57,567 nucleotides of DNA, taken from the NCBI GenBank assembly GCA_902799045.1, contig CADBZH010000026.1, positions 1 to 57,567 on the forward strand. Direction: 5' to 3'. This DNA comes from an uncultured Eubacteriales bacterium. GTDB taxonomy: Bacteria > Bacillota > Clostridia > Christensenellales > Aristaeellaceae. Both the position numbers and the translations under genes were made by a program. The notes beneath the pieces were generated by a model. It saw only the letters and a list, made by a program, of their open reading frames with translations, ran no database searches and had not been told where the DNA came from. Below, in pieces: positions 29,160 through 54,097 of this stretch; positions within the stretch are counted from its first letter, which is position 1; each line of letters begins with the position of its first letter.

Positions 29160-29837
29160 ATGTCTTTGAGCGACAAGCTCTATAAGATCCTCATCCAGGG
29201 CGGCTCCTGGAAGACCATTCTGGGTGGCCTGTGGGTCACGATCCAAATCTCCGCGCTGGCCCTGGTGCTGGGCACGGTGCTGGGCGCGGTGATCTGCCTG
29301 CTGCGCACGCGGAAGAACCCCGTCGCCCGGGGCATCGCCTCGGTGTATATCGCCATACTGCGGGGCACGCCGGTGCTGATGCTGCTGCTTCTGCTGTACT
29401 ATGGCGTGTTCGCCCGGGCGAATCTGAACCCGGTGACGGTGGCGGTGTTCACGTTCGCGCTGAACGTGTCCGCCCATGTGGCGGAGCTGCTGCGCTCGGC
29501 GCTGGAAGCCGCCGACCACGGGCAGGCCGAGGCCGCGCGGACGCTGGGCTTCTCCGCCTGGGATACCTTCCGGATCATCACGCTGCCGCAGGTGCTGCGC
29601 ATCGCCAAGCCGGTCTACCAGTCCACCATTGTGAACCTGATCCAGTGGACCAGCGTGGTTGGCTACGTGACCATCACTGACCTGACCCGCGTCATCAACA
29701 ACACGGCCTCGCGCACCATGCAGCCGCTGCTGACCATCTGCATCGGCATGTTGATCTACCTGGCGTTGTCCTATATCGTGTTCGGCCTGTTTGCGCTGAC
29801 GGATAAGATGAAGAAGAGGGGAGGCGAAACGGCATGA
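29160..29837 (+). CDS. Polar amino acid ABC transporter permease
   Basis: The protein has 225 residues, with AGGAAGGA upstream of the ATG. It is a HisM/GlnP-type permease with about five helices. Signature regions are LYKILIQGGSWKTILGGLWV at the N-terminus, RGTPVLMLLLLLYYG, and the EAA loop AARTLGFSAWDTFRIITLP that contacts the ATPase. Only one permease gene is present, so it would act as a homodimer. The stop overlaps the start of the ATPase gene by four bases. Confidence 0.93.
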   Translation: MSLSDKLYKILIQGGSWKTILGGLWVTIQISALALVLGTVLGAVICLLRTRKNPVARGIASVYIAILRGTPVLMLLLLLYYGVFARANLNPVTVAVFTFALNVSAHVAELLRSALEAADHGQAEAARTLGFSAWDTFRIITLPQVLRIAKPVYQSTIVNLIQWTSVVGYVTITDLTRVINNTASRTMQPLLTICIGMLIYLALSYIVFGLFALTDKMKKRGGETA

Positions 29838-30931
29838 GCCTGATCGAAGTGAAGGGCCTGAGGAAATCCTTCGGCAGCCTGGAGGTATTGAAGGGCGTCG
29901 ACCTGAGCGTGGAGCAGGGCGAGCGGATCGCCATCATCGGCGGCTCCGGCTGCGGCAAGAGCGTGTTCCTGCGCTCGCTGTGCCTGCTGGAGAAGCCGAC
30001 CGCCGGGCAGGTGTTCATCGATGGCAAGGAGATCACCGCCGCCAAGGGCGGCCAGGTGGACGAAATCCGCCGCAGCATGGGCATGGTCTTCCAGAAGTTC
30101 CACCTGTTCAGCGAGATGGACGTGATGGACAACCTGTGCCTGGCCCCGACGCGGATACTGAAAATGCCCCGCGAGGAGGCGGAAAAAAAGGCCATGGAGC
30201 TGCTGGGGCAGGTCGGCCTCGCCAGCCGCGCCCACGCCTGGCCCACGGTGCTCTCCGGCGGTCAGCAGCAGCGCATCGCCATCTGCCGCTGCCTGATGAT
30301 GGAGCCGAAGGTGCTGCTGTTCGACGAGCCGACCTCCGCACTCGACCCCACGATGGTGGGCGAGGTGCTGGCCGTGATCCGCATGCTGGCCAAGCGGGAT
30401 CTGAGCATGCTGATCGTGACGCACGAGATGAACTTCGCCCGCGAGGTGGCCAGCCGCGTGCTGTACTTTGCCGACGGCGGCATCTATGAGCAGGGCACGC
30501 CCGATGAGATCTTCGACGCGCCGAAGCGCGAGAAGACCATCGCCTTCATCAACAAGATCAAGTATTTTACCTACGAGATCGACCGCCAGGACTTCGACCT
30601 GATGCAGCTCCAGGGCGGCATCCAGAATTTCGGCGAGAAGTACGGCCTGAATCAGAAGCGCACCTACCGGCTGCAGATCTGCTGTGAGGAGCTGATCTAT
30701 GAGCTGCTGAGCCACTGCTATCCCAACCGGAATGACGTGGATCTGAAGCTGACGGTCTCCCACGCGGAAGCCGACGGCGCGACGCGCATCGCCATCAACT
30801 GCGGCGGCGCGGCCTACAACCCCTTCGAGCAGGACGAGGATGGCCTGGGCGTGACGATCCTGAAGAAAATGGCCACGCAGCTGGATTACCGGCTGGAGGG
30901 CGGACGGAACGTCATCGACATCTCCCTGTAG
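29834..30931 (+). CDS. Amino acid ABC transporter ATPase with C-terminal RsbW-like (degenerate GHKL) domain
   Basis: The protein has 365 residues, against about 240-250 for a normal GlnQ/HisP ATPase. Residues 1-245 are the ATPase: Walker A GGSGCGKSVF (36-45), signature LSGGQQQR (about 141), Walker B LLFDEPTSALDP and the VTHEM histidine. Residues about 250-365 resemble the anti-sigma/GHKL ATPase fold. CCEELIYELLSHCY matches the RsbW helix usually reading SEAvtNAvkHaY, but the N-box Asn is Glu; NCGGAAYNPFE stands where D-x-G is expected, and DGLGVTIL keeps the GLG turn. ATP binding by this second domain is doubtful. It may bind a regulator or gate transport. A copy of its last 41 residues lies at 32163-32288. 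Confidence 0.9.
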   Translation: MSLIEVKGLRKSFGSLEVLKGVDLSVEQGERIAIIGGSGCGKSVFLRSLCLLEKPTAGQVFIDGKEITAAKGGQVDEIRRSMGMVFQKFHLFSEMDVMDNLCLAPTRILKMPREEAEKKAMELLGQVGLASRAHAWPTVLSGGQQQRIAICRCLMMEPKVLLFDEPTSALDPTMVGEVLAVIRMLAKRDLSMLIVTHEMNFAREVASRVLYFADGGIYEQGTPDEIFDAPKREKTIAFINKIKYFTYEIDRQDFDLMQLQGGIQNFGEKYGLNQKRTYRLQICCEELIYELLSHCYPNRNDVDLKLTVSHAEADGATRIAINCGGAAYNPFEQDEDGLGVTILKKMATQLDYRLEGGRNVIDISL

Positions 30932-30993
30932 ACCCCCAAACAAAGGAATGCGCCGCAAGGCATTTTCCAATACATTTCAAGGAGGACAACTCT

Positions 30994-32013
30994 ATGAAGA
31001 GACTCGTTTCCCTGACCCTGGCCCTGATGCTGGCGCTGTGCGCGCTGGCCGTTCCCACAATGGCGGAGGAAGTCGTCGTAAAGGAAGGCGTCCTTACGCA
31101 GCTGAACTGGACGGACGAAGAACTGGAATCGGCAAGTAACATCGTGGTCCCGATGCTGATTCTCGATGCGCCCCAAGATGGCGGAGAGAGTGAAGCCGAA
31201 GCCCAGCCCGCGATCAAATACGATGAGGTGTATTATGATACGCTGGATGCCATGCTGATGGCGCTGAATGTCGGGGACATCGACGAAATCAGCATCAACT
31301 ACGCCACGGCGAGATATCTGGAGGCCACAAACGATAATTACGCCATCATGTATCGTCCCGATGAACTGGCAAATGACACCGCGATCGAACAGTTCATCAT
31401 TAGCATGCTCACCTACAATTACGCCTTCCTGCTGATGGAGGATCATGCCGACCTGCGGGACGCGCTGAACGGCGCCATCGCCGAAATGAAGGCGGACGGC
31501 ACGCTGGATGAGCTGGTTCAGACCCAGATCGAGGCCGCGATCAACGGCGAAGAAATCGCGCCGGTTGAGATGCCCAGCATCGAAGGCGCGGAGACAATCC
31601 GCGTGGCCGTGACCGGCTCCATGCCGCCCCTGGACTACGTGGCCGCCGATGGCACGCCCGCGGGCTTCAGCACCGCCGTGATGGCGGAGATCAGCCGCCG
31701 CCTTGGCAAGAACGTGGAGTTCGAGGTGGTGGACAGCGTGGGTCGCGCCACCGCCCTGGCCTCCGGCACCGTGGATGCGGTGTTCTGGACGATCACGAAC
31801 GACATTGCGCAGAAGGCCGCCGACATGAGCCGTGAGGAGCGGCAGGAACTGAGCAGAAGCTTCAATCCCACGGATGAGGAGAAGCAATACATGAAGCAGT
31901 TCGACGCTGCCTTTGATGTTTCCACCCTGAGCAGCCAGGATAAGCCGGAAGGCACGATCGTCACCGATCCGTATTTCAGCGATTATACCACTGTGGTGAT
32001 CAAGAATTCATAG
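30994..32013 (+). CDS. Secreted substrate-binding protein with swapped lobe order, copy 1
   Basis: The protein has 339 residues, with AAGGAGG before the ATG. The signal peptide (MKRLVSLTLALMLALCALAV) probably ends at TMA-EE; no lipobox is obvious. The first half holds a segment usually found late in family-3 binding proteins (YYDTLDAMLMALNVGDID, then ADLRDALNGAIAEMKADGTL). The second half holds the usual N-terminal lobe (IRVAVTGSMPPLDYVAADG, GFSTAVMAEISRRLG, then ALASGTVDAVFW) and ends at TDPYFSDYTTVVI. The lobes are therefore in reversed order relative to HisJ/GlnH. It is the likely ligand receptor for the permease and ATPase just upstream. An insert near residues 270-300 is not shared with copies 2 and 4. 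Confidence 0.85.
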   Translation: MKRLVSLTLALMLALCALAVPTMAEEVVVKEGVLTQLNWTDEELESASNIVVPMLILDAPQDGGESEAEAQPAIKYDEVYYDTLDAMLMALNVGDIDEISINYATARYLEATNDNYAIMYRPDELANDTAIEQFIISMLTYNYAFLLMEDHADLRDALNGAIAEMKADGTLDELVQTQIEAAINGEEIAPVEMPSIEGAETIRVAVTGSMPPLDYVAADGTPAGFSTAVMAEISRRLGKNVEFEVVDSVGRATALASGTVDAVFWTITNDIAQKAADMSREERQELSRSFNPTDEEKQYMKQFDAAFDVSTLSSQDKPEGTIVTDPYFSDYTTVVIKNS

Positions 32014-32162
32014 GAAGCCATGCAGTAACAGAATCGGAACCCATGGGACGGCTTGTTCTCCCTGACCACCGGCAATGGGTGTCAGGGAGAACATCCATGC
32101 CACATGCCGGCGGGGACGCTTCTCCCAAGCACAGGGGACGTCCCCTTTGGGATCTACCGGCC

Positions 32163-32288
32163 GGAGCGGCCTACAACCCCTTCGAGCAGGACGAGGAAGG
32201 CCTGGGCGTGACGATCCTGAAGAGCATGGCCACGCAGCTGGACTGGCGGCTGGAGCCTGGCCGGAACCTCATCGACATATCGCTGTAG
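32163..32288 (+). pseudogene. Duplicated fragment of the ABC-ATPase/RsbW-like C-terminus
   Basis: The 41 codons before TAG match the last residues of the ATPase at 29834-30931 at 36 of 41 positions (GAAYNPFEQDEEGLGVTILK, then the GRNLIDISL end). No start or upstream domain remains. The fragment sits 74 bases before binding-protein copy 2, just as the complete ATPase gene sits before copy 1. This shows that the ATPase-binding protein unit was once duplicated in tandem and the second ATPase was lost. A short palindrome, AGGGGACGTCCCCT, lies just upstream at 32133-32146. Confidence 0.88.
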
Positions 32289-32362
32289 GCGACGCGCGGC
32301 GGAAGCTGACGCTGCGCGCGTTTCCAGAATACCATCTTCTCAAGCAGAATGGAGGCATTACT

Positions 32363-33202
32363 ATGAAGAGGTTTTTTGCGATACTCACTGTGCTGGTGCT
32401 CTCGCTTACCCCGATGAACGGCTGTCTGGCGGAGGGAGAGAGCGCGCTGGGCCTGCTGTCGCCCCAGGGGGTTTCCGAGGACGAGCTGAACGATAACCTG
32501 AAGGATATCCTGTTCAACGTCCTGCCCTTCTCCGGCTACAGGTTTTTTGATACCTTCAACAGCATGATTACGGCGCTGAACAGCGGTACCATTGCGGGCA
32601 TTGAGACCGATGAATACGTGGCCGGCTACATTTTCTCGCACCTGGACGGCTTTGCATCGTACACGACGGACGCGCTCCCCGAGTACCACGTGGGCTATTC
32701 CATGCTGCTGCGCGAGGAGGACACGGAACTCCGGGATCGCATCTCAGGCGCTATTGCGGATATGAAGGCGGACGGAACGCTGGATCGCCTGAAGGCGCTT
32801 TACATCGATGACTGCATTGCCGGTAAGGAACCTGAAGCGATGGTTCCGGAGCAGATTGACGGCGCGGAGACGCTCGTGGTCGCCGTGACAGGGGATCGGC
32901 CGCCGATGGACTATTTCTCCGCCGACGGCACGCCGATTGGCTTCAATACCGCGCTTGCGGTCGAAGTTGCAGACCGGCTCGGCATGAACGTTCAGTTCGT
33001 TTCGGTGGATTCCGGAGCGCGGGCCGTCGCGCTGGCCTCGGAGAGCGCGGACGTGGTTTTCTGGTCGGTCCTGGGCGACTTTAACAACTGGGAGAAGGCC
33101 AGCGAGGAGGATCAGCCCGAAAACACCATCCTGACGGAGCCCTATCTCACGGGCATCGAGTGCTATGTGGTCCGGGAAGACTCGTCGATAGCCGCAGATT
33201 GA
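32363..33202 (+). CDS. Secreted substrate-binding protein with swapped lobe order, copy 2
   Basis: The ATG at 32363 has GGAGG seven bases upstream, giving 279 residues; the longer frame runs through the ATPase fragment and was rejected. The signal peptide ends near CLA-EG. The order of segments is as in copy 1: FFDTFNSMITALNSGTIAG and TELRDRISGAIADMKADGTL first, then LVVAVTGDRPPMDYFSADG, GFNTALAVEVADRLGMNV and ALASESADVVFW. It closes with ILTEPYLTGIECYVV. Copies 2 and 4 share a short GDF-NWE segment near the C-terminus. A hairpin follows at 33211-33264. Confidence 0.85.
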   Translation: MKRFFAILTVLVLSLTPMNGCLAEGESALGLLSPQGVSEDELNDNLKDILFNVLPFSGYRFFDTFNSMITALNSGTIAGIETDEYVAGYIFSHLDGFASYTTDALPEYHVGYSMLLREEDTELRDRISGAIADMKADGTLDRLKALYIDDCIAGKEPEAMVPEQIDGAETLVVAVTGDRPPMDYFSADGTPIGFNTALAVEVADRLGMNVQFVSVDSGARAVALASESADVVFWSVLGDFNNWEKASEEDQPENTILTEPYLTGIECYVVREDSSIAAD

Positions 33203-33210
33203 GGTCGCGC

Positions 33211-33373: not shown

Positions 33374-34390
33374 ATGAAAAAACTGATTTTGCTGACGCTG
33401 GCCATGATGTTGGCGCTGTGTGTGCTGATGCCTGCGCTGGCCGAGGGTACCATCAAGCGCATCGGCACGCTGCAAATGCTGAACATGACCGAGACGGAAT
33501 ACGCCGCCGTGCAGAAGCTGCGCGCCAGGATCGGCAAGATGATGAACGAGGAAGGCGTTCCCGCCGAGCATCCCTACTACGACGGCATGCTGGATGAAGA
33601 GCCGGAGATCGTTTTCTTCGACAGCCTGGACAGCATGCTTATGGCGCTGGACGCCGATCAGATCGACGCCATCGATCTGAACCGAAGCACCGCGAAATAC
33701 CTGTGTGCCAACAATGACAGGCTGGCGATCCTGATGGATTACAGCGACCCTGATGAAAACATGCTGTCAGAATTCGCGTTAAACGGCCCCATGGGCTTCG
33801 ATTTTTCGATGATGCTCCAGGAGGAAAACCAGTCCCTGGCGGACGAGCTGTCCGAGGCGATCGATTCCATCGACGAGGACGAGCTTGAGGCGCTCACGGA
33901 GAAATACATCACCGGCGCGATCAACGGCGAGATTCCTTCCGTTGAGCTGCCTGTTATCGAAGGGGCGGAGACGATCCGCGTGGCCGTGACCGGCGATCTG
34001 CCGCCCATGGACTATGTGAGCGCCGACGGCCAGCCCGCGGGCTTTAACGTTGCCATCCTGGCGGAGATCAGTGCGCGCATCGGCAGGAATATCGAACTTG
34101 TGCCCATCAATGCCGCTGCTCGCCCCGTGGCCCTTTCCTCCGGCACGGTGGACGTGGTGTTCTGGAGCCGCAGCTGCATGGGGGTGAACGAAGCCAGGGA
34201 CAATGATTTCCAGCTGGATACGGTGCTCGTTCCCGAGGACGAGGCTGATCAGGAGATGCTGGAGAAGATCGAAACCGAAATCTTGCCTGATTTCGATTAT
34301 GCTGTCTACGCAGACAAGGATATCCCGGATGGGCTGATCGTCACCGCATGCTACTATACCGACAGCACCGTGCTGGTGTCCAAGCAGTAA
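33374..34390 (+). CDS. Secreted substrate-binding protein with swapped lobe order, copy 3
   Basis: The protein has 338 residues, with AAGGAGGAAG before the ATG. The signal peptide ends at ALA-EG. The early segment is FFDSLDSMLMALDADQIDA, followed by a helix corresponding to the late helix of normal binding proteins (LADELSEAIDSIDEDELEAL). The second half is IRVAVTGDLPPMDYVSADG, GFNVAILAEISARIGRNI and ALSSGTVDVVFW, with a C-terminal strand VTACYYTDSTVLVS. Like copy 1 it has an extra stretch before that strand. It is distinct enough from the others to suggest a different ligand. Confidence 0.85.
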   Translation: MKKLILLTLAMMLALCVLMPALAEGTIKRIGTLQMLNMTETEYAAVQKLRARIGKMMNEEGVPAEHPYYDGMLDEEPEIVFFDSLDSMLMALDADQIDAIDLNRSTAKYLCANNDRLAILMDYSDPDENMLSEFALNGPMGFDFSMMLQEENQSLADELSEAIDSIDEDELEALTEKYITGAINGEIPSVELPVIEGAETIRVAVTGDLPPMDYVSADGQPAGFNVAILAEISARIGRNIELVPINAAARPVALSSGTVDVVFWSRSCMGVNEARDNDFQLDTVLVPEDEADQEMLEKIETEILPDFDYAVYADKDIPDGLIVTACYYTDSTVLVSKQ

Positions 34391-34539: not shown

Positions 34540-35415
34540 GTGAAAAAAACCGTAACCTTGATTCTGGCGCTCTTGATTGCCCTCTCCGTTTGCCTGTCCG
34601 TGGGCATGGCCGAGGACGCCGGGAACACCGGCGCGGTCCAGAAGTATGGCGACATTGGCCGGCTGTCCAAGCTGAATATCACTGAGGACGAATTGAATGA
34701 AGTGCTCAAGGACATCATGGTCAACAGTATCTGCAACAAATACGTGTTCTATGACACGATGAACGATATGATCATGGCGCTGAACCGAGGCGATATCGTG
34801 GTGCTCGAAACCGATCAGAATACTGTGCGTTACATCGCCTCCAGAAACGACAATATCGTGGATCGCCCGCCGTACATGAATCCCAATATGCTGATCTTCT
34901 GCATGCTCCTGCGGGAAGAGGACACGGAGCTGCGCGATCAGATTTCCGCGTGCATCGCCGAAATGGAGGAAGACGGCTCCATCGAGGCGATGAAGCAGAC
35001 CTATATCGAGGATGTCATCGCGGGCGAAGACCCCGTCGCCATCGAGTCTCAGGTCTTTCCGGACGCCAAGACGATCAAAGTGGCCGTGACGGGCGACCGT
35101 CCTCCCATGGACTACGTCTCCGCCGGCGGCGATCCTCTGGGCTTTAACACGGCCCTGATCGCGGAAGTGGCGAAGCGGCTCAAGATGAACATCGAAATGG
35201 TCAACGTGACCTGCGCGGCCAGGGGCATAGCGCTTGCCACCGGCGTCTGCGATATCGTGTTCTGGATGGAAGTCGGCGATTTTGAAAACTGGGAAGGTGC
35301 CGATTTCGAGGACCAGCCTGAAAACACCGTTGTGACGGAGCCCTACATGTCCGTTCCCCTGTGGTGGGCCGTCCTCAAGGATTCCCCCGTGGTGGACGTG
35401 TATCGGGAGGACTGA
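34540..35415 (+). CDS. Secreted substrate-binding protein with swapped lobe order, copy 4
   Basis: The start codon is GTG 34540, with CGGAGG nine bases upstream, giving 291 residues. The signal peptide ends at GMA-ED. The segment order is as in the other three: FYDTMNDMIMALNRGDIVV and TELRDQISACIAEMEEDGSI, then IKVAVTGDRPPMDYVSAGG, GFNTALIAEVAKRLKMNI and LATGVCDIVFW. It ends with TEPYMSVPLWWAVL. The overall layout is closest to copy 2. It is the last gene of the ABC region. Confidence 0.85.
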   Translation: MKKTVTLILALLIALSVCLSVGMAEDAGNTGAVQKYGDIGRLSKLNITEDELNEVLKDIMVNSICNKYVFYDTMNDMIMALNRGDIVVLETDQNTVRYIASRNDNIVDRPPYMNPNMLIFCMLLREEDTELRDQISACIAEMEEDGSIEAMKQTYIEDVIAGEDPVAIESQVFPDAKTIKVAVTGDRPPMDYVSAGGDPLGFNTALIAEVAKRLKMNIEMVNVTCAARGIALATGVCDIVFWMEVGDFENWEGADFEDQPENTVVTEPYMSVPLWWAVLKDSPVVDVYRED

Positions 35416-35728: not shown

Positions 35729-36115
35729 TCATTCCCCGTCCTTGCGGATGTGATAGGCCAGGTTGATGGCGAAGCCGGAGGGGGAGACCATCAGGGTCGC
35801 GCGGGAAGAGCCCGTATCGGTGACCTTGTCCCCCTGGGCATTCCGGAAGCCGTGGGCGACCAGGAAATCGTAGGCCTCGTCAAAGTCGCGCACGTTCATG
35901 CGGATGGCGGTCAGGTCGCGCGGCATGTGGCCCGGCTCCACCTGCGCCACGTCCACGTGGAAGCCGTTGGCATCCTTCATGGAAACGCTGGTGATGTCCT
36001 TGTCGTTGATGCCGGTCTTCTTATGCTGCCGCTCAAAGCCAAGCGCTTCAAACAGTGCGATGACCTCGTCGGCCTTCTCGGTGAGCACCATGGGGTGGAA
36101 TGAAGTGATCTGCAT
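35729..36115 (-). CDS. VOC (glyoxalase-fold) protein, copy a
   Basis: A minus-strand protein of 128 residues with the two beta-alpha-beta-beta-beta halves of the vicinal-oxygen-chelate fold. It opens with MQITSFHPMVLTEKADEVI and LFEALGFER, has the central FHVDVAQV strand, the NVRDFDEAYDFLVAHGF helix and the closing SPSGFAINLAYHI strand. It is one of eight such copies between 35.7 and 41.3 kb. VOC proteins include glyoxalases, fosfomycin-resistance enzymes and bleomycin-binding proteins. The metal ligands of those enzymes are not clearly conserved here, so a ligand-binding or stress role is as likely as catalysis. Confidence 0.85.
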   Translation of the reverse strand: MQITSFHPMVLTEKADEVIALFEALGFERQHKKTGINDKDITSVSMKDANGFHVDVAQVEPGHMPRDLTAIRMNVRDFDEAYDFLVAHGFRNAQGDKVTDTGSSRATLMVSPSGFAINLAYHIRKDGE

Positions 36116-36156
36116 GGGGGTTATCCTCCTCGCTCAATAATATCTGTAATCTGTCG

Positions 36157-36744
36157 TCAATTCCTGCCGCGTGCGTGCTTGTCTTCGTATTTTCCCTTGA
36201 TGGCAAGGCCGATCGTGCCATCCGCGATCAGCGCGGTTACGTAGCCCATGAAGCTGAAATCAAATCCGATACCGGCCATATTGACGCATGCCAGGATCAG
36301 CTTGACGATGTCCAACGCCAGGAGCATGTAGAAGAGATTCCATGTTCTGCGCTTTCCGAGATCCTTCCCAAAGGCGAGAATCAGAAGGATCACAGCTTTA
36401 CAGGCGTTCACGATGCTGATGGCAATCATCATCGCGTTGACCTTATAGAAGGAGAGGTCAATGTATATCGTCAATGCGCACACGGCGATATGCAGGATCA
36501 GGAACGCCTTGTAATAGCCTGCCGCCTGCTTTGTGTAGCCCTTCAACAGATACAGCGCGCCGGCAACGAGCATCGCCAGAATGATCGCCATCAGGAATAC
36601 GTTCGTCAGATTGGACAGGCGCTCCGCATCGGCGGTGGCGTTGTGACAGCCAACGATAAAATTGACCGCGGCGCCGACGGTACCGCAGGCCATTGCAATC
36701 ATCAAAACCAAATGAGAGATCATAAGAGGACTTGACTTTTTCAT
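36157..36744 (-). CDS. Six-helix membrane protein within the VOC array (paralogue of 41592-42176)
   Basis: A 195-residue protein with about six hydrophobic helices. Two regions match the protein at 41592-42176 on the opposite strand: LLKGYTKQAAGYYKAFLIL near the third helix, and the end DGTIGLAIKGKYEDKHARG. I do not recognise a named family. The gene lies between VOC copies a and b in the same orientation, with AAAGGA upstream of the start, and is probably part of the same long transcript. Confidence 0.75.
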   Translation of the reverse strand: MKKSSPLMISHLVLMIAMACGTVGAAVNFIVGCHNATADAERLSNLTNVFLMAIILAMLVAGALYLLKGYTKQAAGYYKAFLILHIAVCALTIYIDLSFYKVNAMMIAISIVNACKAVILLILAFGKDLGKRRTWNLFYMLLALDIVKLILACVNMAGIGFDFSFMGYVTALIADGTIGLAIKGKYEDKHARGRN

Positions 36745-36879
36745 AGCTTCTTGTTCCTTTATATTGCTGATTGTGAGTTGTTGTCCGGGTGATATTCTTT
36801 TCGCTTGCCTGCGATGATTCTTCCGCTTCCCGGAACGTGCCCGCGGCTCATTGCCTGAACCGCAGGCAGCGGGGAGGGA

Positions 36880-37176
36880 TTACCTGTCCTCTTTCCGGAT
36901 GTGCTCGGCAATGCTGATGGTAAAGCCGGACGGGGAAACCATCATCGTAGACTTGGAGGAGCCGGTATCGGTAACATGTCCGCCCTGCGCGTTCTTGAAG
37001 CCCTTTTCCTCCAGCAGCCTGTAAGCCTCGTCAAAATCGCGGACGTTCATGCGGATGGTTACAATGTCCTGCGGGACGGGCGCGGACGCAACGTCCACGT
37101 GGAACACCTTGCCGTCCTCTCCGGTGTAGCGCATGCGCACGCTGGTGATGTCCTTGTCGTTGATGCCGGTCTTCAT
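36880..37176 (-). pseudogene. VOC protein, copy b, 5'-truncated
   Basis: The frame begins at MKTGINDKDITSV, which corresponds to about residue 33 of a complete copy, and ends normally (SPSGFTISIAEHI). Upstream codons still read ERRH, the conserved residues that precede this point, but a TGA stop sits just before them and the first beta-alpha unit is missing. DNA and protein are nearly identical to copy d (37680-38015), so this is a recent duplicate that lost its start. If the internal ATG is used it would make 98 residues, too short for a full VOC fold. There is no good ribosome-binding site. Confidence 0.75.
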
Positions 37177-37208
37177 GTGGCGGCGCTCTCAAGGCGTTCT
37201 ATCCCCTG

Positions 37209-37589
37209 TCAATCGTGGTTTCGGATGTGCTGCGTGAGCTGGATCGAGAAGCCGGAGGGGGCGAACATCAGGCAGGAGCGGGCGGATTTGGACTCGACGG
37301 TATGATCCTCGTCCCGGGCGTTTTTGAAGCCGTGCGCCTTCAGAAACGCATAGGCCTCGTCAAAGTCGCGGACGTTCATCCGCATGGTGCTCATGTCCTT
37401 TTCCATGGATTCCACCCGGGCCACGTCCACATGGAAGCCGTTGGCGTCCGTCATGCGAACGCTGGAGATGTCCTTGTCGTCAATGTTGTCCACCTTGTGG
37501 CGGCGCTCAAAGCCCAGCTCTTCAAACAGCTTGATGATCTCATCTGCGTTTTTGGAAAGGATCATGGGGTTAAAGGTCGTGATCTGCAT
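37209..37589 (-). CDS. VOC (glyoxalase-fold) protein, copy c
   Basis: I place the start at 37589 (MQITTFNPMILSKNADEII), matching the other copies and following AAAGGAG; the upstream in-frame extension is intergenic. The product is 126 residues with LFEELGFERRH, ANGFHVDVARV, NVRDFDEAYAFLKAHGF and APSGFSIQLTQHI. It is complete. It has KVDNIDDKDIS where copies a, b and d have KTGINDKDIT. Confidence 0.85.
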   Translation of the reverse strand: MQITTFNPMILSKNADEIIKLFEELGFERRHKVDNIDDKDISSVRMTDANGFHVDVARVESMEKDMSTMRMNVRDFDEAYAFLKAHGFKNARDEDHTVESKSARSCLMFAPSGFSIQLTQHIRNHD

Positions 37590-37679
37590 GGCGTTTTCTC
37601 CTTTACTTGTGGTGGTCGATCCGCGCAGCGGAATGCGCCCGCGGCTCATCGTCAGAGCCCGCGGGCGGTGTCGGAGGGG

Positions 37680-38015
37680 TTATTGGTCTTCTTTCCGGAT
37701 GTGCTCGGCAATGCTGATGGTAAAGCCCGACGGGGAAACCATCATCGTGGACTTGGAGGAGCCGGTATTGGTGATGTGCCCGCCCTGCGCGTTCCTGAAG
37801 CCCTTCTCCTCAAGCATTTTGTAGGCCTCGTCGAAGTCGCGGACGTTCATGCGGATGGTTACAATGTCCTGCGGGACGGGCGCGGACGTAACGTCCACGT
37901 GGAACACCTTGCCGTCCTCTCCGGTGTAGCGCATGCGCACGCTGGTGATGTCCTTGTCGTTGATGCCGGTCTTCATGTGGCGGCGCTCCAGGGGGTTGAA
38001 GCTGGTGATGGTCAT
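37680..38015 (-). CDS. VOC protein, copy d, with internal N-terminal deletion
   Basis: A 111-residue protein with a good start (AGGAGAACAACCC before the ATG). It begins MTITSFNPLERRHMKTG: the first strand is joined directly to ERRH, removing about 20 residues (the first helix, IVTQDAESAVKLFEELGF in copy e). The deletion is in frame, and the rest is intact and nearly identical to copy b. Loss of the first helix of a VOC module should disturb folding unless it pairs with another copy. It may be a pseudogene in the making. Confidence 0.75.
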   Translation of the reverse strand: MTITSFNPLERRHMKTGINDKDITSVRMRYTGEDGKVFHVDVTSAPVPQDIVTIRMNVRDFDEAYKMLEEKGFRNAQGGHITNTGSSKSTMMVSPSGFTISIAEHIRKEDQ

Positions 38016-38090
38016 GGGGTTGTTCTCCTCCTTCGGGGTCTGATTGCCAGGTCGAGTGGCAAGTCGGGTTGGAAGTCGGGATGCTGCCTG

Positions 38091-38468
38091 TCAGTCGCGA
38101 TCCTTGGTGTGCTGAGAAACCGCGAGAATGAAACCGCTCGCGGACACCATGATGTTGAACCTGGAGGAACCCGTATCGATCGTCTTATTGGCGACCGCAT
38201 GCCGGGCCTTGTGGAATCCCCGCGCTTCAAGGAACGCGATCGCCTCCTCCAGGTTGTCCACGTTCATGCGGATCATCGTCCACTCGCCGGTTCCCTGGGA
38301 AACGTCCACATGGAAGCCGTTGGCGTCCTTCATCCGGATATCGGTCGCGTTGTCCTCGCCGATGCCCTGCTTGGTGTGGCGGCGCTCAAAGCCCAGCTCC
38401 TCAAACAGCTTGACGGCGGATTCCGCGTCCTGGGTAACGATCAGGGGGTTGAAGCTCGTGATGGTCAT
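38091..38468 (-). CDS. VOC (glyoxalase-fold) protein, copy e
   Basis: A complete 125-residue copy with AAGGAGG before the start. Features are MTITSFNPLIVTQDAESAV, LFEELGFERRHTKQGI, ANGFHVDVSQG, NVDNLEEAIAFLEARGF and ASGFILAVSQHT. It is more diverged in the C-terminal half than a to d. It lies 33 bases downstream of the HD/APH fusion gene, in the same direction. Confidence 0.85.
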   Translation of the reverse strand: MTITSFNPLIVTQDAESAVKLFEELGFERRHTKQGIGEDNATDIRMKDANGFHVDVSQGTGEWTMIRMNVDNLEEAIAFLEARGFHKARHAVANKTIDTGSSRFNIMVSASGFILAVSQHTKDRD

Positions 38469-38501
38469 GTCGGGTTCCTCCTTGCTAATAGTCGTCAGTT
38501 C

Positions 38502-39998: not shown

Positions 39999-40069
39999 GG
40001 CGATGGTCCCTGCCTTGATTGATGATCCATGGGCGGATCGCGCAAAGCATCGACCCGCCTATGCCGGGG

Positions 40070-40459
40070 TTATCGGTCTTCCTTCCTGATGTGCTTGACA
40101 AGGGTGATGCCGAAGCCGGAGGGAGACACCATCAGCAGGCCCTTGGCGGAATCCGATTCGGTGGCCGGCGTTCCGTTGGAGGGCTTGAAGCCGTGATCGG
40201 TCAGCAGTTGGTACGCCGCGTCAAAGTCGTCCACATTCATGCGAATGCTGGCGATGTCCCGCGGAATCGCGGCGCTGGTGACGGCCACGTCCACGTAGAA
40301 GCCGTTTGCGTCCTTCATGCGGCAATCGGTGTACGCGTTCCCGGAGGTCGAAGTTCCGCTGGGCGCGTGGCGCTTTTCAAAGCCCAGGGCCTCAAACAGA
40401 GCGGTGACTTCCTCGAAATGGTTCGTAACAATCATCGGGTTAAAGGTTGTGATCTTCAT
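40070..40459 (-). CDS. VOC (glyoxalase-fold) protein, copy f
   Basis: A complete 129-residue copy with GAGAGGAGA before the start. Features are MKITTFNPMIVTNHFEEVT, LFEALGFEKRHAPSGTS, ANGFYVDVAVT, NVDDFDAAYQLLTDHGF and SPSGFGITLVKHI. It is closest to copy g, with which it shares the SGTSTSGN/TGTSALGN loop. Confidence 0.85.
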   Translation of the reverse strand: MKITTFNPMIVTNHFEEVTALFEALGFEKRHAPSGTSTSGNAYTDCRMKDANGFYVDVAVTSAAIPRDIASIRMNVDDFDAAYQLLTDHGFKPSNGTPATESDSAKGLLMVSPSGFGITLVKHIRKEDR

Positions 40460-40485
40460 GGGGCGTCTCCTCTCTTCAGGATCGG

Positions 40486-40872
40486 TCAGTCGTGATTCTT
40501 GATGTGCTGGATCAGGTTGATGCCAAAGCCGGACGGGGAGTAGAGGATGCAGGCCTTGGCCGAGCCGGTATCCGTCACGGCTTTGCTCTGCGGATTCGTA
40601 AAGCCGCGGGCGGTGAGGAACTCATAGGCTTCGTCGAAATCGTCCACATTCATGCGAATGGTGGTCAGGTCCTGCTCCCGCGGCGCGCTGCTTCTGCTCA
40701 CGTCCACATGAAACCCGTTCGCGTCGGTCATCCGATAGCTGACGTATTCGTTCCCGAGGGCGGACGTGCCGGTGGGATTGTGCTTCTTTTCAAAGCCCAG
40801 CGCTTCAAACACGCTGACGACCGATTCCAGGTCCTTGGTGATGATCGAGGGATTAAAGCTGGTGATCTTCAT
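40486..40872 (-). CDS. VOC (glyoxalase-fold) protein, copy g
   Basis: A complete 128-residue copy with AAAGGAG before the start. Features are MKITSFNPSIITKDLESVV, FEALGFEKKHNPTGTS, ANGFHVDVSRS, NVDDFDEAYEFLTARGF and SPSGFGINLIQHI. It lies 26 bases from both neighbouring copies, so h, g and f form a tight operon. Confidence 0.85.
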   Translation of the reverse strand: MKITSFNPSIITKDLESVVSVFEALGFEKKHNPTGTSALGNEYVSYRMTDANGFHVDVSRSSAPREQDLTTIRMNVDDFDEAYEFLTARGFTNPQSKAVTDTGSAKACILYSPSGFGINLIQHIKNHD

Positions 40873-40898
40873 GTCATGTTCTCCTTTACATGCGTCGA

Positions 40899-44598: not shown

Positions 44599-46311
44599 AT
44601 GAAAGGGTTTTGCGAGCGCAAGTTCAGCTCCATGTTTTTATCAGGCACGTTTACAAAGGCGGTCATGTACATCATGCTCCTCTGCGACAGCATTGTCGCG
44701 GGCTATTACATCGGTGAATCCGGCGTCGCGGCCATCAACGCCATCACGCCCGTGACGGGCATCGTGACGTTCTTCGGAGACCTCGTCTCGACGGGCGTCG
44801 GCATCGTCTTCACCCGGGAAGTCGGGGCGATGCGAAAAAAGCGGGCCGACGAGATCTACGGCCAGGGGCTCATCATCAGTATCGGTATCGGCCTGATCTC
44901 CGCCGCCGTCATCTTCCTGATCACCGACGTCTACTTCAGGGCCAACGGCATCACGGGCGAGATCCTCGAGAACGCCCTCCAGTATTACCGCCTGGTTCCG
45001 ATCAACGCCTTTTTGACCATCGTCATATTCTATCTCGAGCAGATGGTGTACAGCGACGGCGACGAGCTGTGCAACAACATCTGCTACGGGTTCCAGATCG
45101 GCGGCAACATCATCCTCTCCGTGGTGCTGACCAAGTTCCTCGGCATGACCGGCATCATCCTCGGCTCCGTGATCGGAAACGCCCTGGGCATTCTCGTCTG
45201 CTGCTGGCACTACTTCCGCAAGGGCAACACGCTGCACTTCGTGTGGCACCTCTCCATCAAGGATTTCCTGCTCACCTCGCGCTACAGCATCGTGGATTCG
45301 TCGGTTTACCTGTGCTGGGCCCTGATGGACTACGTGATGATCGGCTTTGTCTCCAGCCGCTTCGGCGAGACGGGCCTCATCGCCCTCGCCGTGGTGGTCA
45401 GCCTGATCGAGTTCAGTGTCGTCATGGACGGCGTGGGCATGGCCATGCAGCCGCTCATCGGCACGTATTTTGGCGAGAAGAACCCCCTGCTCATCAAGCG
45501 CGTCATGAAGTCCGCCATCAAGGCGGCGCTCATCGAGGGCGTGATCGCGACGGCGCTGATCTGGGTTTTCGCGAAGCAGTTCTGCGGCCTGTTCGGCATC
45601 ACCGGCGGGGCGACGCTGGCGCCCTCGATGCTGGCCATTCGCATCGTTTCCCTCGGGTTCACGTTCTGCAGCGCCGTTTCGCTGATGACCTCCTACTACA
45701 TGCTGATCGACCGCATCGGCATGGCGACCTGCTTCGCCTGCCTGCAAAACGGCCTTTTGTACATGCTGCTGCCGATTTTGTGCGCGACGCTCTTTGGCAT
45801 GGGCGGCATGTGGGCGGGCTTTGCCGTGGCGCCGGTTCTGACGCTGGCCTGCTCGCTGGCGTTCGTCTATCTGCGCTTTGGCAGGGCGGATTTCCCGTAC
45901 CTTCTCAAGAGCATGGATTCTCAGATCGAGGTGATGGACGACACGCTTTCGCCCGAATCTGCGGTGCACCTGTCGGATCGCGTCAGGAGCAGCCTGCTGG
46001 CGCATCAGTATGAGAAGAAGACGGCCAACAACGCGGCGCTGTTTGTCGAGGAGATCGGCCTGACCATCCTCGAGAGGAACAGGCAGGCGAAGAAGCCGGT
46101 CCTGGTCGAGCTCTCGCTCTTCTATGAGCAGGACTCGGTCCTCGTCATCGAACGCGATTCCGGAACGCTGTTTGACCTGACGGAATCCGATGCTCAGATC
46201 GGGGAATTGAGCAGCTTCATTCTGAGCGGCATGATGGAGGCGCACAAGGAAAAGGCCTATCTCGTCACCACCGGCTACAATCGGAACATGATCCGCTTTT
46301 CGCGGGCGTGA
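44599..46311 (+). CDS. MATE-family transporter with C-terminal RsbW-like (degenerate GHKL) domain
   Basis: A 570-residue protein, against about 450 for a normal MATE transporter, with GGGGGGAAAG before the ATG. Residues about 1-445 hold twelve helices with MATE features (GESGVAAINAITPV, GANG-like turn in YFRANGITG, GVGMAMQPLIGTYFG). Residues about 455-570 resemble an anti-sigma-type GHKL domain: FVEEIGLTILERN stands for the N-box helix (the Asn is Thr), and IERDSGTLFDLTE for the D-x-G box; the GLG turn is missing. ATP binding is therefore doubtful. Similar tails occur on the ABC ATPase (29834) and the ligase (52091). It is encoded with a HAD phosphatase and an FGGY kinase. Confidence 0.88.
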   Translation: MKGFCERKFSSMFLSGTFTKAVMYIMLLCDSIVAGYYIGESGVAAINAITPVTGIVTFFGDLVSTGVGIVFTREVGAMRKKRADEIYGQGLIISIGIGLISAAVIFLITDVYFRANGITGEILENALQYYRLVPINAFLTIVIFYLEQMVYSDGDELCNNICYGFQIGGNIILSVVLTKFLGMTGIILGSVIGNALGILVCCWHYFRKGNTLHFVWHLSIKDFLLTSRYSIVDSSVYLCWALMDYVMIGFVSSRFGETGLIALAVVVSLIEFSVVMDGVGMAMQPLIGTYFGEKNPLLIKRVMKSAIKAALIEGVIATALIWVFAKQFCGLFGITGGATLAPSMLAIRIVSLGFTFCSAVSLMTSYYMLIDRIGMATCFACLQNGLLYMLLPILCATLFGMGGMWAGFAVAPVLTLACSLAFVYLRFGRADFPYLLKSMDSQIEVMDDTLSPESAVHLSDRVRSSLLAHQYEKKTANNAALFVEEIGLTILERNRQAKKPVLVELSLFYEQDSVLVIERDSGTLFDLTESDAQIGELSSFILSGMMEAHKEKAYLVTTGYNRNMIRFSRA

Positions 46312-46973: not shown

Positions 46974-46977
46974 TCCA

Positions 46978-48567
46978 TTGTATATCATCATCTACGACTT
47001 TGGCACCAGCAGCTTAAAGACCTGCCTGTTTGAGATCGACGAGAAAATCAGGCTGCTGGCAAACGCCAACGCCGCCTACGGCCTCCATGTCTCCGCCAAT
47101 GGCGGCGTGGAGCAGGACACGGAGGAGTGGTGGGCGGCGATCTGCTCCACCACAAGGGCGCTGTTTACGCAGACGGATGTCAAACCCGGGGATATTGAGG
47201 GCATGGCCTTCTGCTCGCAGATGCAGGGCACGGTCCTGGTCGATGAGAACGGAAATGCCCTCAGGCCTCCGATGAACTACCTGGATCAAAAGGGCGTGAA
47301 GGAGTACAGGGAGTGCATGGGCCGCGGGATCATCAAGGTCTCCGGCTGCAGCCTGTACAAGCTGGCGCGGAACCTGCTCGTCAATTACGCCGGCTCCGTC
47401 AGCGCCAAGGACCCGGTATGGAAGTACAAGTGGGTGGAAAACAACGAGCCTGACGTCTTTTGGAAGATGTACAAGTGGCTGGATATCGGCGATTACCTCG
47501 TGGCGCGCTGCACGGGCAGGATCGTCCGCACCGCCGATTCCGCGTTCGCGACCTTCCTCTATGACACGCGCAAGGGCAGGGAAGGCTGGAACAGGGGCCT
47601 TCTGAAGATGTACGGCGTGCACCCAGAGCATATGCCCGAGATCATCGACAGCACGGATCGGGTCGGCGGCCTGACGGAAAGGGCGGCGGCGGAGCTCGGC
47701 CTCGTGCCGGGCATCCCGGTCTTCGGCGGCGGCGGCGACACGACCTTTGTGAACATCGGCGCCGGCTGCACCCGGCCGGGCGACACCCACATCTACGTCG
47801 GAACCTCCGGCTGGGTATCGACCTGCATGGACCGTCAGACGGTCGACCTCAACGCGATGATCACCGGCGTTCTCTCGGCTATCCACGGCTATTACAATTA
47901 CTACGCCGAATTGGAAACGGCGGGGAAGTGCCTGGAGTGGGTCTCTGAACACCTGGTCCTCGACGAGATCGGCGTCTATCTGTCCCACGACAAGGTGACC
48001 GACGTGGAGAGACGGTATCTGAGCCTCTATGACTATCTCTCCGCAAAAATGAGCCAGGTGCTCCCGGGGTCGAACGGCGTGATCTTTACCCCGTGGCTCC
48101 ACGGCAATCGGTGCCCGTTCGAGGATTCCAAAGCCGGCGGCATGTTCTTCAATATCCGCGTTGAAAACAACAAAGCAGACATGATTCGCGCCGTCATGGA
48201 GGGCATCTGCTATCACCTGCGCTGGCTGCTGGAATGCGTCATGAGGAAGGTCAAAACCTCCGATGTGATCCGCTTCGTCGGCGGAGGCTCCCTCTCGCCG
48301 GTGACCTGCCAGACGCTGGCCGACATCACAGGTCGGACGATCGAGACCATTGACAACCCCCAGTCGGTGGGTGCGATGGGGGCCGCGATCGTGGTCGCGG
48401 CGGGCATCCGCGGGGTGGACGCGTCGGAGCTTTCGCGGCGGCTGGTCAGGGCCAACCATTCCTATGCGCCCAACCCGGCCAACCGGGATGTCTATGAGCG
48501 CAACTATCAGGTGTTCAAGAAGCTCTACAAAGCCAATGCCGCGCTTTTCAGAAAGCTGAACGGCTGA
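46978..48567 (+). CDS. FGGY-family carbohydrate kinase (xylulokinase-like)
   Basis: Translation probably starts at TTG 46978 with AAAGAGGA upstream, giving 529 residues. The actin-like ATPase fold shows in YIIIYDFGTSSLKTCLFEID (phosphate 1), CSQMQGTVLVDENG, GGGGDTTFVNIGAGC and FVGGGSLSPVTCQTLADITG (adenosine). This is the xylulokinase/gluconokinase family. The sugar cannot be told from sequence. Together with the HAD phosphatase and MATE transporter it forms an operon, which suggests uptake, export or signalling around a polyol or sugar. Confidence 0.9.
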   Translation: MYIIIYDFGTSSLKTCLFEIDEKIRLLANANAAYGLHVSANGGVEQDTEEWWAAICSTTRALFTQTDVKPGDIEGMAFCSQMQGTVLVDENGNALRPPMNYLDQKGVKEYRECMGRGIIKVSGCSLYKLARNLLVNYAGSVSAKDPVWKYKWVENNEPDVFWKMYKWLDIGDYLVARCTGRIVRTADSAFATFLYDTRKGREGWNRGLLKMYGVHPEHMPEIIDSTDRVGGLTERAAAELGLVPGIPVFGGGGDTTFVNIGAGCTRPGDTHIYVGTSGWVSTCMDRQTVDLNAMITGVLSAIHGYYNYYAELETAGKCLEWVSEHLVLDEIGVYLSHDKVTDVERRYLSLYDYLSAKMSQVLPGSNGVIFTPWLHGNRCPFEDSKAGGMFFNIRVENNKADMIRAVMEGICYHLRWLLECVMRKVKTSDVIRFVGGGSLSPVTCQTLADITGRTIETIDNPQSVGAMGAAIVVAAGIRGVDASELSRRLVRANHSYAPNPANRDVYERNYQVFKKLYKANAALFRKLNG

Positions 48568-49724: not shown

Positions 49725-49755
49725 CGGTTACGGAAGGCGAAAGGCGGTGAGCGGC

Positions 49756-50679: not shown

Positions 50680-50735
50680 ATTCGCGACAAGCGCGCAGAA
50701 ACACACTCTGGAATGTGAAGAAAGAAGGGTAATCA

Positions 50736-51665: not shown

Positions 51666-51771
51666 GGCAGGACCACGGGACCTGATGCAGCCCTGTGTCA
51701 ATACAGTATTGCGAATACCCCGGCGGGGCCGCCCTGCGGCGATGCCCGTTCGCGAGCTGAAAAAACAGGCT

Positions 51772-51964: not shown

Positions 51965-51987
51965 GACCTTCAAATATGACCAATGTC

Positions 51988-52016
51988 TTGTAAACATCGC
52001 GAAACTGTGTTAAAAT
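51988..52016 (+). promoter_or_regulatory. Promoter for the ligase-acyltransferase operon
   Basis: TTGTAA and TAAAAT are separated by 17 bases, and TGT precedes the -10 box (extended form). Confidence 0.7.
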
Positions 52017-52090
52017 CACAGACAGACGCAAACCGCAATCAACGACGCATGGACCCTGGAGAGGGTCACAAAACCAGTACTCAAAAACAT

Positions 52091-54097
52091 ATGGAAAAGC
52101 AAACGAAACCCGCGCTGCTGTCGAAGCGGCTCTGCCGAGACTTTCCGGGCCGACCGGCCGTCGTCGGAAGCGGCGGCAGCTGTACCTACGAGGCCATGGA
52201 GACGGGCATTCTGGGCCTGAGCCGGGTGCTCCGGGAGATGGGCGTGCAGAAGGGAAGCAAGGTGGCCCTGTGGGGCTACAATTCTGTCAACTGGCTGATC
52301 GCCTTTTTTGCCATCGTTCGCGCCGGCGGCATCGCTGTGCTGCTCAACTACAGCATGTCGTGCGCCGACGCCGCGGAGCTCTTGACCATGACGGAGACCG
52401 CCTTCCTGCTCTGCGGCGACAACGGCGCAACGAAGAAGGATGCGAACGCCATGCGAACCCTGGCGGCCCTGGCGGATATCCCGCAGGAGCATTGCCTGGA
52501 TATCCGCCCCGCCGCGCTGGACCTGAGCCGGCATTTCCGGGAGGAGGCCGAGCAGCCGGACGCGCGCGATGAATCCGAGGCGAATGAAACCGCGTTCATC
52601 ATATTCACCTCGGGCACCACGTCCCGGCCCAAGGCGGTGAAGATTTCCCAGAGTGCGCTCTCCATCGACGCGGAGGCGTTCAACGGCAATAGCGGCGAAT
52701 ACGCGGGCCGCAGCGTCTGCGTGGCGGTGCCACTGTTCCACATCCTCGGCCTGTTGATGAGCTACGCCTATCTCTGCCGGGGGGCCACGGTGTGCCTGCC
52801 CGCGAACTACAAGCCGGACACCCTGGTGCGGGAGATCGACGCCAACCGCGTCTCCGACATGGCCGCGGTGGGCGCGGTGTACCTGGCGCTGGCCGAGGCG
52901 GAGGGCTTTGAGGAACGGGTGGTGCCCAACCTGCATCTGTGCATGATCGCGGGCGGCATGTCCACCCCGGTGCAGATGATGCGCCTGGAGCTGCAATACG
53001 CCAACGCCACCTTCATCAATATGTACGGCCAGAGCGAAGCCGCGCCGCTGACCATGGTGAGCCCCTGCGACTTGGTGGAAAAGCGGGCGCAGACCGTGGG
53101 CCGGGCCGTCGAGGGGTTGGACATCCGCATCTCGGACGGCAAGGGCGGCTTCCTGCCCCAGGGCGGCATCGGCGAGGTGGTGGCCCGGGGCGACAACCTG
53201 ATGAACGGATATCATGGCCTGCCCCGGGAAAAGCAGCCCATCGACGACGCGGGCTGGCTGCATACCGGCGACCTGGGCTATTTCGACGAGGACGGCTACC
53301 TGCACCTGTCCGGCCGGATCAAGGACGTGATCATTCGGGGCGGCGAGAATATCTCTCCCTCCGAGATCGAGAGCGCCCTGAACCGGATGGACAACATCCG
53401 CGAGGCCAAGGTGATGGGCGCGCCGCACCCCATCTACGGCGAGAGCGTGGAGGCGTGCGTCACCATGACCGACGGCGGCGCTTCGTTCGACCAAGAGGCG
53501 ATCAAGGCCGCCCTGCGCTCGATGGTCGCGCGCTTCAAGGTGCCCTCCCACATCTTCCTGTACGACCGCTTCCCGCTGAACGTGAACGGCAAGCTGGACC
53601 AGCGCTCGCTGCACGCCGATATGCTCACGCGGCTGAAGCGCCTGGCGGTGGACGAGGAGCTGGCCGGCGGCGTGACGGTGTTCGACCTGGTGGTGAAGAA
53701 CAGCGGCTATGCCATCGTGCCGGTCACCAGCCTGGTCGAGGAGCTGGCGTCCAGCGTGGGCTTTGGCCGCCGCAGGGCGCTGCAGATCCGGCTGGCCGTG
53801 GAGGAGATGCTCACCGAGCGCATCATGGACGCCTACTCCGCTGCGGGCAACATCCGCGTGAAGATCACGCTGATGCCCGAATGGATGCGTGTGGCGTTCA
53901 GCGACGATGGCGCGGAATACTTCATCGACAAGTGCCGGGACACCTCCATGAGCGCCCAAATCATCCTAAAGGCCGTCAGCGATTTCCACACCGACTACGC
54001 CGGCGGCAAGCCCGTCTACTGCATGGATTTCCTGTACGAGGGTGAATTCAGCGTCCAGGAATTCCTGATGAAGAGCAAGGAGGAGACTGAAGCATGA
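52091..54097 (+). CDS. AMP-forming acyl ligase with C-terminal RsbW-like (degenerate GHKL) domain
   Basis: The start is uncertain: ATG 52091 (668 residues) or ATG 52049; neither has a good ribosome-binding site, and earlier frame lies in the promoter. Residues about 1-530 are an acyl-CoA synthetase/adenylate-forming enzyme with FTSGTTSRPKAVKIS (phosphate loop), YGQSEAAPLT, WLHTGDLGYFDEDGYL, SGRIKDVIIRGGENISPSE and NVNGKLDQ with the catalytic Lys. Residues about 535-668 resemble a GHKL/anti-sigma domain: RLAVEEMLTERIMDAY aligns with the RsbW helix (N-box Asn is Glu), and FSDDGAEYFID with the D-x-G box; the GLG turn is missing. It activates a carboxylic acid, probably for the two acyltransferases that follow. 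The next start overlaps its stop (ATGA). Confidence 0.88.
   Translation: MEKQTKPALLSKRLCRDFPGRPAVVGSGGSCTYEAMETGILGLSRVLREMGVQKGSKVALWGYNSVNWLIAFFAIVRAGGIAVLLNYSMSCADAAELLTMTETAFLLCGDNGATKKDANAMRTLAALADIPQEHCLDIRPAALDLSRHFREEAEQPDARDESEANETAFIIFTSGTTSRPKAVKISQSALSIDAEAFNGNSGEYAGRSVCVAVPLFHILGLLMSYAYLCRGATVCLPANYKPDTLVREIDANRVSDMAAVGAVYLALAEAEGFEERVVPNLHLCMIAGGMSTPVQMMRLELQYANATFINMYGQSEAAPLTMVSPCDLVEKRAQTVGRAVEGLDIRISDGKGGFLPQGGIGEVVARGDNLMNGYHGLPREKQPIDDAGWLHTGDLGYFDEDGYLHLSGRIKDVIIRGGENISPSEIESALNRMDNIREAKVMGAPHPIYGESVEACVTMTDGGASFDQEAIKAALRSMVARFKVPSHIFLYDRFPLNVNGKLDQRSLHADMLTRLKRLAVDEELAGGVTVFDLVVKNSGYAIVPVTSLVEELASSVGFGRRRALQIRLAVEEMLTERIMDAYSAAGNIRVKITLMPEWMRVAFSDDGAEYFIDKCRDTSMSAQIILKAVSDFHTDYAGGKPVYCMDFLYEGEFSVQEFLMKSKEETEA

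Follow-up and report, generated by a model that had tools for sequence, protein, structure and literature searches.

RsbW-like C-terminal domains on two transporter proteins and an acyl ligase of a clostridial contig: candidate receivers of partner switching

The 57,567-nucleotide stretch analysed here (contig CADBZH010000026.1 of an uncultured Eubacteriales bacterium of the Aristaeellaceae, called the window below) encodes an ABC transporter ATPase, a MATE transporter and an AMP-forming acyl ligase that each end in a degenerate GHKL domain of the RsbW/SpoIIAB kind. In relatives, tailed transporters often stand beside genes of the corresponding control circuit (STAS proteins, SpoIIE-type phosphatases and RsbW), an arrangement suggestive of direct action of the circuit on transporters. 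We consider it probable that the tails receive STAS proteins and that transporters and an enzyme are thereby the direct targets of a partner switch without a sigma factor. The three proteins and their tails are as follows.

29834..30931, + strand: ABC ATPase of the GlnQ-like polar amino-acid type with a C-terminal GHKL tail; 365 residues; Pfam ABC_tran 3e-36
30554..30928, + strand: GHKL tail of the ABC ATPase; matched by HATPase_c_2 and by the MATE-tail profile; tail relatives 61% and 48% identical
44599..46311, + strand: MATE transporter with a C-terminal GHKL tail; 570 residues; MatE 2.2e-24
45904..46308, + strand: GHKL tail of the MATE protein
52091..54097, + strand: AMP-forming acyl ligase with a C-terminal GHKL tail; 668 residues; AMP-binding 7.7e-66
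53624..54094, + strand: GHKL tail of the ligase, plus an extra C-terminal helix

NCBIfam GlnQ-type models cover the ABC ATPase up to residue 242 or so, with scores under their cut-offs, and the ligase reading frame has an alternative start at 51983. When compared with Pfam HATPase_c_2, the ABC tail scored 27.6 bits, just over the cut-off of 27.4 (E 3.2e-6), and the ligase tail 23.0 bits, under it (E 8.5e-5); the MATE tail was absent from the Pfam list at E<=10 and reached 14.3 bits (E 0.07) in a scan of its own genome. A match to this family, anticipated in an earlier note on this DNA, was thus obtained for the ABC tail, fell short for the ligase tail and was not listed for the MATE tail. A profile was built from 21 MATE tails encoded at other loci, including one locus in the genome of the window. 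It scored the ABC, MATE and ligase tails at 46.7, 33.6 and 18.3 bits, and the top score among 3,000 shuffled tails (1,000 of each) was 9.8 bits. The earlier note's central observation, three open reading frames with C-terminal RsbW-like tails, is therefore upheld: its coordinates and quoted strings are exact, and the tails resemble the domain family better than chance.

Structure prediction covered the MATE and ligase tails. AlphaFold2 yielded models with predicted local distance difference test scores of 88.0 and 79.9 and predicted template-modelling scores of 0.82 and 0.75, respectively; the alignments used included intact homologues, so that the fold models are to be read with caution. The element order E-H-H-E-E-H-E-E is common to both, and their top structural matches are RsbW and SpoIIAB, in agreement with the comparison that the earlier note had proposed. 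The predicted fold of these two tails is thus of the RsbW/SpoIIAB type and not of the histidine-kinase type. A histidine-kinase ATPase domain is rejected for both on the structure ranking, and chance resemblance on the shuffled-tail scores together with the predicted folds.

In the GHKL fold the Asn of the N-box holds Mg-ATP; this and the names of the box motifs are general knowledge. The N-box helix reads EELIYELLSHCY in the ABC tail, EEIGLTILERNR in the MATE tail and EEMLTERIMDAY in the ligase tail, with Glu, Thr and Glu, respectively, at the Asn position, so that the loss of this Asn and the retention of Glu in all three, as first noted from the letters, are confirmed. A D-x-G-like box had also been assigned to each tail (NCGGAAYNP in ABC, RDSGTLFD in MATE and SDDGAEYF in the ligase); its Asp is present in the last two and replaced by Cys in the ABC tail. 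The ABC tail alone among the three retains a Gly in the second glycine box. Judged from these residues, the window tails have probably lost ATP binding.

Linkage to STAS, phosphatase and RsbW genes in relatives

To describe the surroundings of such tails, MATE-GHKL loci of a public genome collection were chosen by patterns demanding the N-box Asn, and the best 80 of at least 533 were scanned with STAS, RsbW and PP2C profiles built from 9, 6 and 3 sequences, part of whose matches were confirmed by Pfam. According to their titles, nearly all of the 80 come from Clostridia, Clostridiales, Lachnospiraceae or Bacillota; 2 are from Spirochaetes, 1 from Christensenella and 2 from Parasporobacterium. 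A STAS, SpoIIE-type phosphatase or RsbW reading frame lies within 3 kb at 21 of these loci, and the density of such neighbours, 11.4 per 100 kb in the first kilobase, drops to 0.5 per 100 kb at distances of 5-7 kb. Most of the linked STAS genes are standalone.

Tailed and untailed MATE genes were compared in the 14 genomes of the same family with a listed tailed MATE, which hold 20 tailed MATEs, 5 tailed ABC proteins and 1 unclear frame (weaker profile rows and the ligase of genome G016 were omitted). As controls served the 118 MATE frames among the matches listed that have no tail and do not exceed 520 residues; 13 frames of 540-823 residues were excluded, and on their contigs no standalone STAS occurs among those matches. 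Within 2 kb, a standalone STAS gene was found for 5 of the 20 tailed MATEs and for none of the 118 listed controls (Fisher test, 4e-5), and an RsbW gene for 3/20 and 0/118, the RsbW list being possibly incomplete. Taken together, STAS or RsbW accompanies 7 tailed MATEs and no listed control, as read off the locus listing. When the distance was extended to 5 kb, one of the 118 listed controls had a STAS gene nearby and one an RsbW gene. In three cases STAS follows directly behind the tail, with 67-87 bp between the matches.

A further set of ten MATE-GHKL loci, nine from other families and one (L311; loci carry our L numbers and contigs of the window's genome C numbers) from the window's own genome, showed a PP2C, STAS or RsbW gene within about 1 kb in seven instances (L302, L303, L304, L306, L307, L308 and L309); L305 has its neighbour at 3.8 kb, and L310 and L311 have none. 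Some relatives combine many of these parts: L139 holds two MATE-GHKL genes, an NCS2-GHKL gene, an ABC-GHKL gene in split frames, three STAS genes, a SpoIIE-type phosphatase and RsbW; L264 shows the row MATE-GHKL, PP2C-RsbW, ABC-GHKL; and L255 groups STAS, MATE-GHKL, PP2C and RsbW. Near STAS genes we also observed proteins of about 200 residues with an LLxEE(T/M) helix (L156 3122-3745, - strand; L019 902-1552, - strand; L146 7658-8245, + strand); the two that were run of these three had no Pfam match at E<=0.01, and they are possibly a further divergent STAS partner.

Relatives of the window proteins themselves were found in comparable positions. Orthologues of the window MATE, 73-77% identical over about 568 residues, occur in L140, L149 and L306, and the 73% orthologue of L306 (568 residues) lies less than 50 bp upstream of a SpoIIE-type phosphatase gene on the same strand. 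A 39% homologue of the ligase-GHKL protein in L187 is encoded about 10 bp upstream of a MATE-GHKL gene whose tail passes the Pfam cut-off. The nearest ABC relative with a known neighbourhood, L146, is 88% identical in the ATPase part and 60% in the tail; a STAS gene stands 1.8 kb past the ABC-GHKL gene, behind a gene on the opposite strand.

On this basis, we infer that STAS binds the tails, under control by phosphorylation, and so affects transport or ligation. A SpoIIE-type phosphatase and an RsbW-type kinase would set the phosphorylation of the serine of an RsbV/SpoIIAA-like STAS protein; the unphosphorylated STAS would bind the GHKL tail of the transporter or ligase and change its activity, location or partners, and phosphorylation would release it. 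The output of switching in the Rsb/SpoIIA style would then be a transporter or enzyme and not a sigma factor. Degenerate tails of the window type, devoid of the Mg-ATP Asn, would read the state of STAS and not act as kinases, and intact MATE tails might possibly be kinases as well.

Several observations weigh against this partner-switch reading. No STAS, PP2C or RsbW gene lies within 3 kb at 59 of the 80 MATE-GHKL loci (again the best 80 of at least 533), and 13 of the 20 tailed MATEs of the family genomes are without STAS or RsbW within 2 kb. None of the 5 ABC tails in these genomes has a STAS or RsbW neighbour, and most of the scanned ABC-tail loci lack a STAS, PP2C or RsbW neighbour, although some have one. 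The linkage rests partly on intact MATE tails, unlike the degenerate tails of the window, and constraint on the MATE and ABC tails is weaker than on the transporter parts of the same proteins (see the next section). In the window's genome, the second MATE-GHKL gene (L311) is without STAS, PP2C and RsbW in the 9 kb examined, and the STAS search finds no match on the window's contig. The earlier note had taken the tails for a regulatory or docking module through which three proteins might answer to one signal: the first part gains from the ties to STAS, phosphatase and RsbW genes in relatives, and the second is not borne out.

Elsewhere in the window's genome, contig C2 carries a SpoIIAA-SpoIIAB-SigF set (names by reading), and PP2C-STAS-STAS-RsbW on C22 and RsbW-STAS on C6 have, by reading, no adjoining sigma gene. 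These sigma-free sets are natural candidates that could act in trans on the tails. In all, STAS proteins of this genome are encoded on C2, C5, C6, C20, C22 and C39. With the SigBFG model, SigG (by reading) scored 252.8 bits, over the cut-off of 234.35, SigF 233.4 bits, just under it, and a third match 130.6 bits, followed by weaker ones. At E<=1e-5 the matches fall on C2, C3, C5, C10 and C43 and none on the window contig (C26) or C11, a search that did not extend to weaker or other sigma families.

A bolder form of the partner-switch reading, which we advance tentatively, is that STAS and degenerate GHKL domains make up a portable plug-and-socket pair, releasable by phosphorylation and found mainly in Clostridia, by which partner switching builds or gates membrane-bound pathways. 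GHKL tags on MATE, ABC, NCS2, SDF and ligase proteins would dock free STAS switches or STAS-tagged enzymes, namely APH-type kinases and condensation enzymes. This variant is considered because STAS-APH genes adjoin ABC-GHKL genes and STAS-Condensation genes overlap MATE-GHKL starts. The same arrangements would fit a static dock, in which degenerate GHKL sockets and STAS plugs, free or fused to enzymes, hold an enzyme on a transporter and serine phosphorylation is optional; uptake would thereby be coupled to phosphorylation, and synthesis to export. In L265 a STAS-APH kinase frame lies upstream of a single-chain ABC-GHKL gene with 87 bp between the frames, and in L150 one small called gene separates the two. 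In both L302 and L309 a STAS-Condensation frame extends over the start of a P0002-like MATE-GHKL gene, a sugar kinase gene stands behind the MATE gene of the window, and the window's genome encodes on C39, by reading, a protein of STAS fused to an APH-type kinase (L025, 1453-2664) like those upstream of ABC-GHKL in relatives. However, the linked STAS genes are mostly standalone, and phosphatase and RsbW genes, unneeded by a static dock, are linked as well, so that docking alone, with the coupling it entails, seems to us unlikely.

Active-site residues, selection and partner types

The partner-switch reading takes the degenerate tails not to be kinases. The retention of Asn and Asp was counted over the domain families; the 80 pattern-selected loci were left out because the patterns demanded Asn. 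Both residues are retained in 46 of 48 standalone RsbW-like proteins and in 24 of 47 MATE tails, compared to 0/26 ABC, 0/4 ligase, 0/2 SDF and 0/1 NCS2 domains. Both N-box Glu are conserved in 23 of 23 rows of each folding alignment (MATE tail and ligase tail). It could be argued that the tails still bind nucleotide, phosphorylating STAS or sensing ATP/ADP through an altered site, the partner being a substrate and not a switch. The D-box Asp of the MATE and ligase tails, the second-box Gly of the ABC tail and the intact half of the MATE tails are compatible with this view; given that the N-box Asn is gone from all three window tails and that none of the ABC, ligase, SDF and NCS2 domains has the pair that nearly all standalone proteins keep, we regard it as improbable.

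Ratios of nonsynonymous to synonymous substitution (dN/dS) were about 0.17 for the ligase tail and 0.17-0.18 for the ligase body. The MATE tail gave 0.17-0.22, compared to about 0.11 for the MATE body, and the ABC tail 0.34-0.38, compared to 0.10-0.20 for the ATPase body; some dS values are above 1 and hence unsure. By this measure the tails evolve under purifying selection, and a decaying relic is not supported, the ligase tail being as constrained as the ligase body. RsbW/SpoIIAB domains are known to dimerise; dimerisation or stability domains unconnected to STAS signalling would accord with the lost ATP residues and with the many tailed loci without linkage, but we give this explanation little chance in view of the linkage of MATE tails to STAS, PP2C and RsbW genes, both against untailed controls and by distance.

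A search for the same tail on other proteins, proposed in the earlier note, was productive, since five partner types were found in relatives: MATE, amino-acid ABC ATPase, AMP ligase, NCS2 permease and SDF symporter. MATE-GHKL fusions are frequent within the same taxonomic family, and the second one of the window's genome (L004) has intact motifs. ABC ATPase-GHKL proteins occur in a form of about 370 residues and as longer single chains of about 1,140-1,180 residues (one of 921), which by reading also contain binding-protein and permease parts. Ligase-GHKL proteins were detected in 3 of 100 family genomes, the window's own included, and in one other Bacillota metagenome-assembled genome (L187); a fourth match in the family genomes is weak and lies in a 173-residue frame, too short for a ligase. 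The NCS2 xanthine/uracil permease with a GHKL domain is that of L139, and SDF symporters carry the domain at the N-terminus (L301, L230); the GHKL parts of the NCS2 and SDF proteins and the tail of L302 were detected by our own profiles, not by Pfam. In a sample of the phylum, the ABC-tail profile matched in 6 of 299 genomes and the general tail profile, which also detects standalone RsbW, in 10 of 299, the window's own genome being counted in both.

In a tree of 111 domains, the partner labels require 6 changes; shuffled labels require 46.5. The MATE tails fall into a single group (69/78), ABC tails need 3 changes, and the three tails of the window are not sisters; deep support is weak, branches are long, and the single NCS2 row, itself on a long branch, comes from a partial frame. 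The portable module of the earlier note, if taken as one recently shared module passed between the three proteins, is not supported; the grouping by partner makes it more likely that the fusions are old and arose separately.

Three side observations concern the distribution of the domain. In L257 (7840-8268, + strand) an ABC-type tail lies in a 143-residue frame that starts inside ATPase-like sequence, and the upstream ATPase frame may be split. MATE-GHKL genes occur on two contigs of Spirochaetes metagenome-assembled genomes (L213, L230), of which L230 also has an SDF-GHKL gene. An intact-looking HATPase_c_2 domain is found N-terminal to a GNAT acetyltransferase-like protein in L299 (5890-7422, - strand; Pfam run for this locus) and L300 (6405-7907, + strand).

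Surroundings of the three genes in the window

The genes next to the three tailed ones are listed below.

29160..29837, + strand: ABC permease in the same operon as the ABC ATPase; TIGR01726, 78.3 bits (cut-off 42.2)
30994..32013, + strand: substrate-binding protein; TIGR01096 5.4e-17, below the model cut-off
32075-33202, 33374-34390 and 34540-35415: three further similar binding proteins, by reading only
32160..32285, + strand: second, partial copy of the ABC tail, covering its last 42 residues; 86% identity
46308-46973, + strand: HAD-like protein behind the MATE gene, by reading
46978-48567, + strand: FGGY sugar kinase behind the MATE gene; TIGR01312 1.3e-84, below the model cut-off
54094..56721, + strand: two 434-residue proteins behind the ligase, condensation/acetyltransferase-like by reading

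The copy of the ABC tail, situated between binding-protein genes, is the trace of a partial tandem duplication. The HAD-like and FGGY kinase genes occur in L140 and L149 as well and were not found in L306. What we take to be an HGFCDG-type motif is the basis for the reading of the two 434-residue proteins, which had no Pfam or NCBIfam match at the thresholds used; the sole PDB match of the protein at 54094 is meaningless (E 1.6). The first of them adjoins the ligase in L147 (81%) and L148 too.

Other genes of the window include an HD_4 domain fused to an APH-type kinase (38502-39998, - strand), the kinase being by reading of the same kind as in the STAS-APH proteins adjoining ABC-GHKL in L150 and L265; a tandem array of about 6-7 similar proteins of about 100-146 residues, glyoxalase/VOC-like by reading only (35729-41282, - strand); and a cluster of Ser/Thr kinases, FHA proteins and PP2C phosphatases, by reading (8496-20634, + strand).

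Comparison with known systems

The RsbW-RsbV-RsbU and SpoIIAB-SpoIIAA-SpoIIE systems share with the tails the GHKL fold and, in relatives, the same gene kit of STAS, SpoIIE-type phosphatase and RsbW. They differ in that the GHKL domain is here the tail of a transporter or ligase and that the ATP residues are lost in the window tails; no sigma gene was noted beside the tailed genes, the relatives not having been scanned for sigma factors. The response regulator LvrC (structure 9qih, among the structural matches of both modelled tails) also has an RsbW-like domain fused to another protein, but its fusion partner is a receiver domain and not a transporter or ligase. MetN, MalK and OpuA resemble the window ABC protein in that an importer's ATPase is extended, in their case by a C-terminal regulatory domain; these extra domains have other folds, not GHKL. 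A search of the open-access literature, which covered neither subscription papers nor preprints, found no description of MATE, ABC or ligase proteins with a GHKL tail. The component families are known; what is new is their arrangement, a proposed variant of partner switching.

According to the review PMC8256260, partner switching is known mainly for the control of sigma factors, and several STAS outputs have unknown targets, among them the non-canonical systems of Vibrio SypA, Rhodobacter RbaV and Nostoc HmpV. These resemble the present case in that STAS, kinase and phosphatase are there and no sigma output is proven, the difference being that here the candidate targets themselves bear the receiver domain. 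Proteins tailed with such a domain, and in relatives encoded next to genes for STAS and phosphatase, thereby offer concrete candidates for targets; if the reading is true, partner switching would also govern uptake, export and acyl activation directly.

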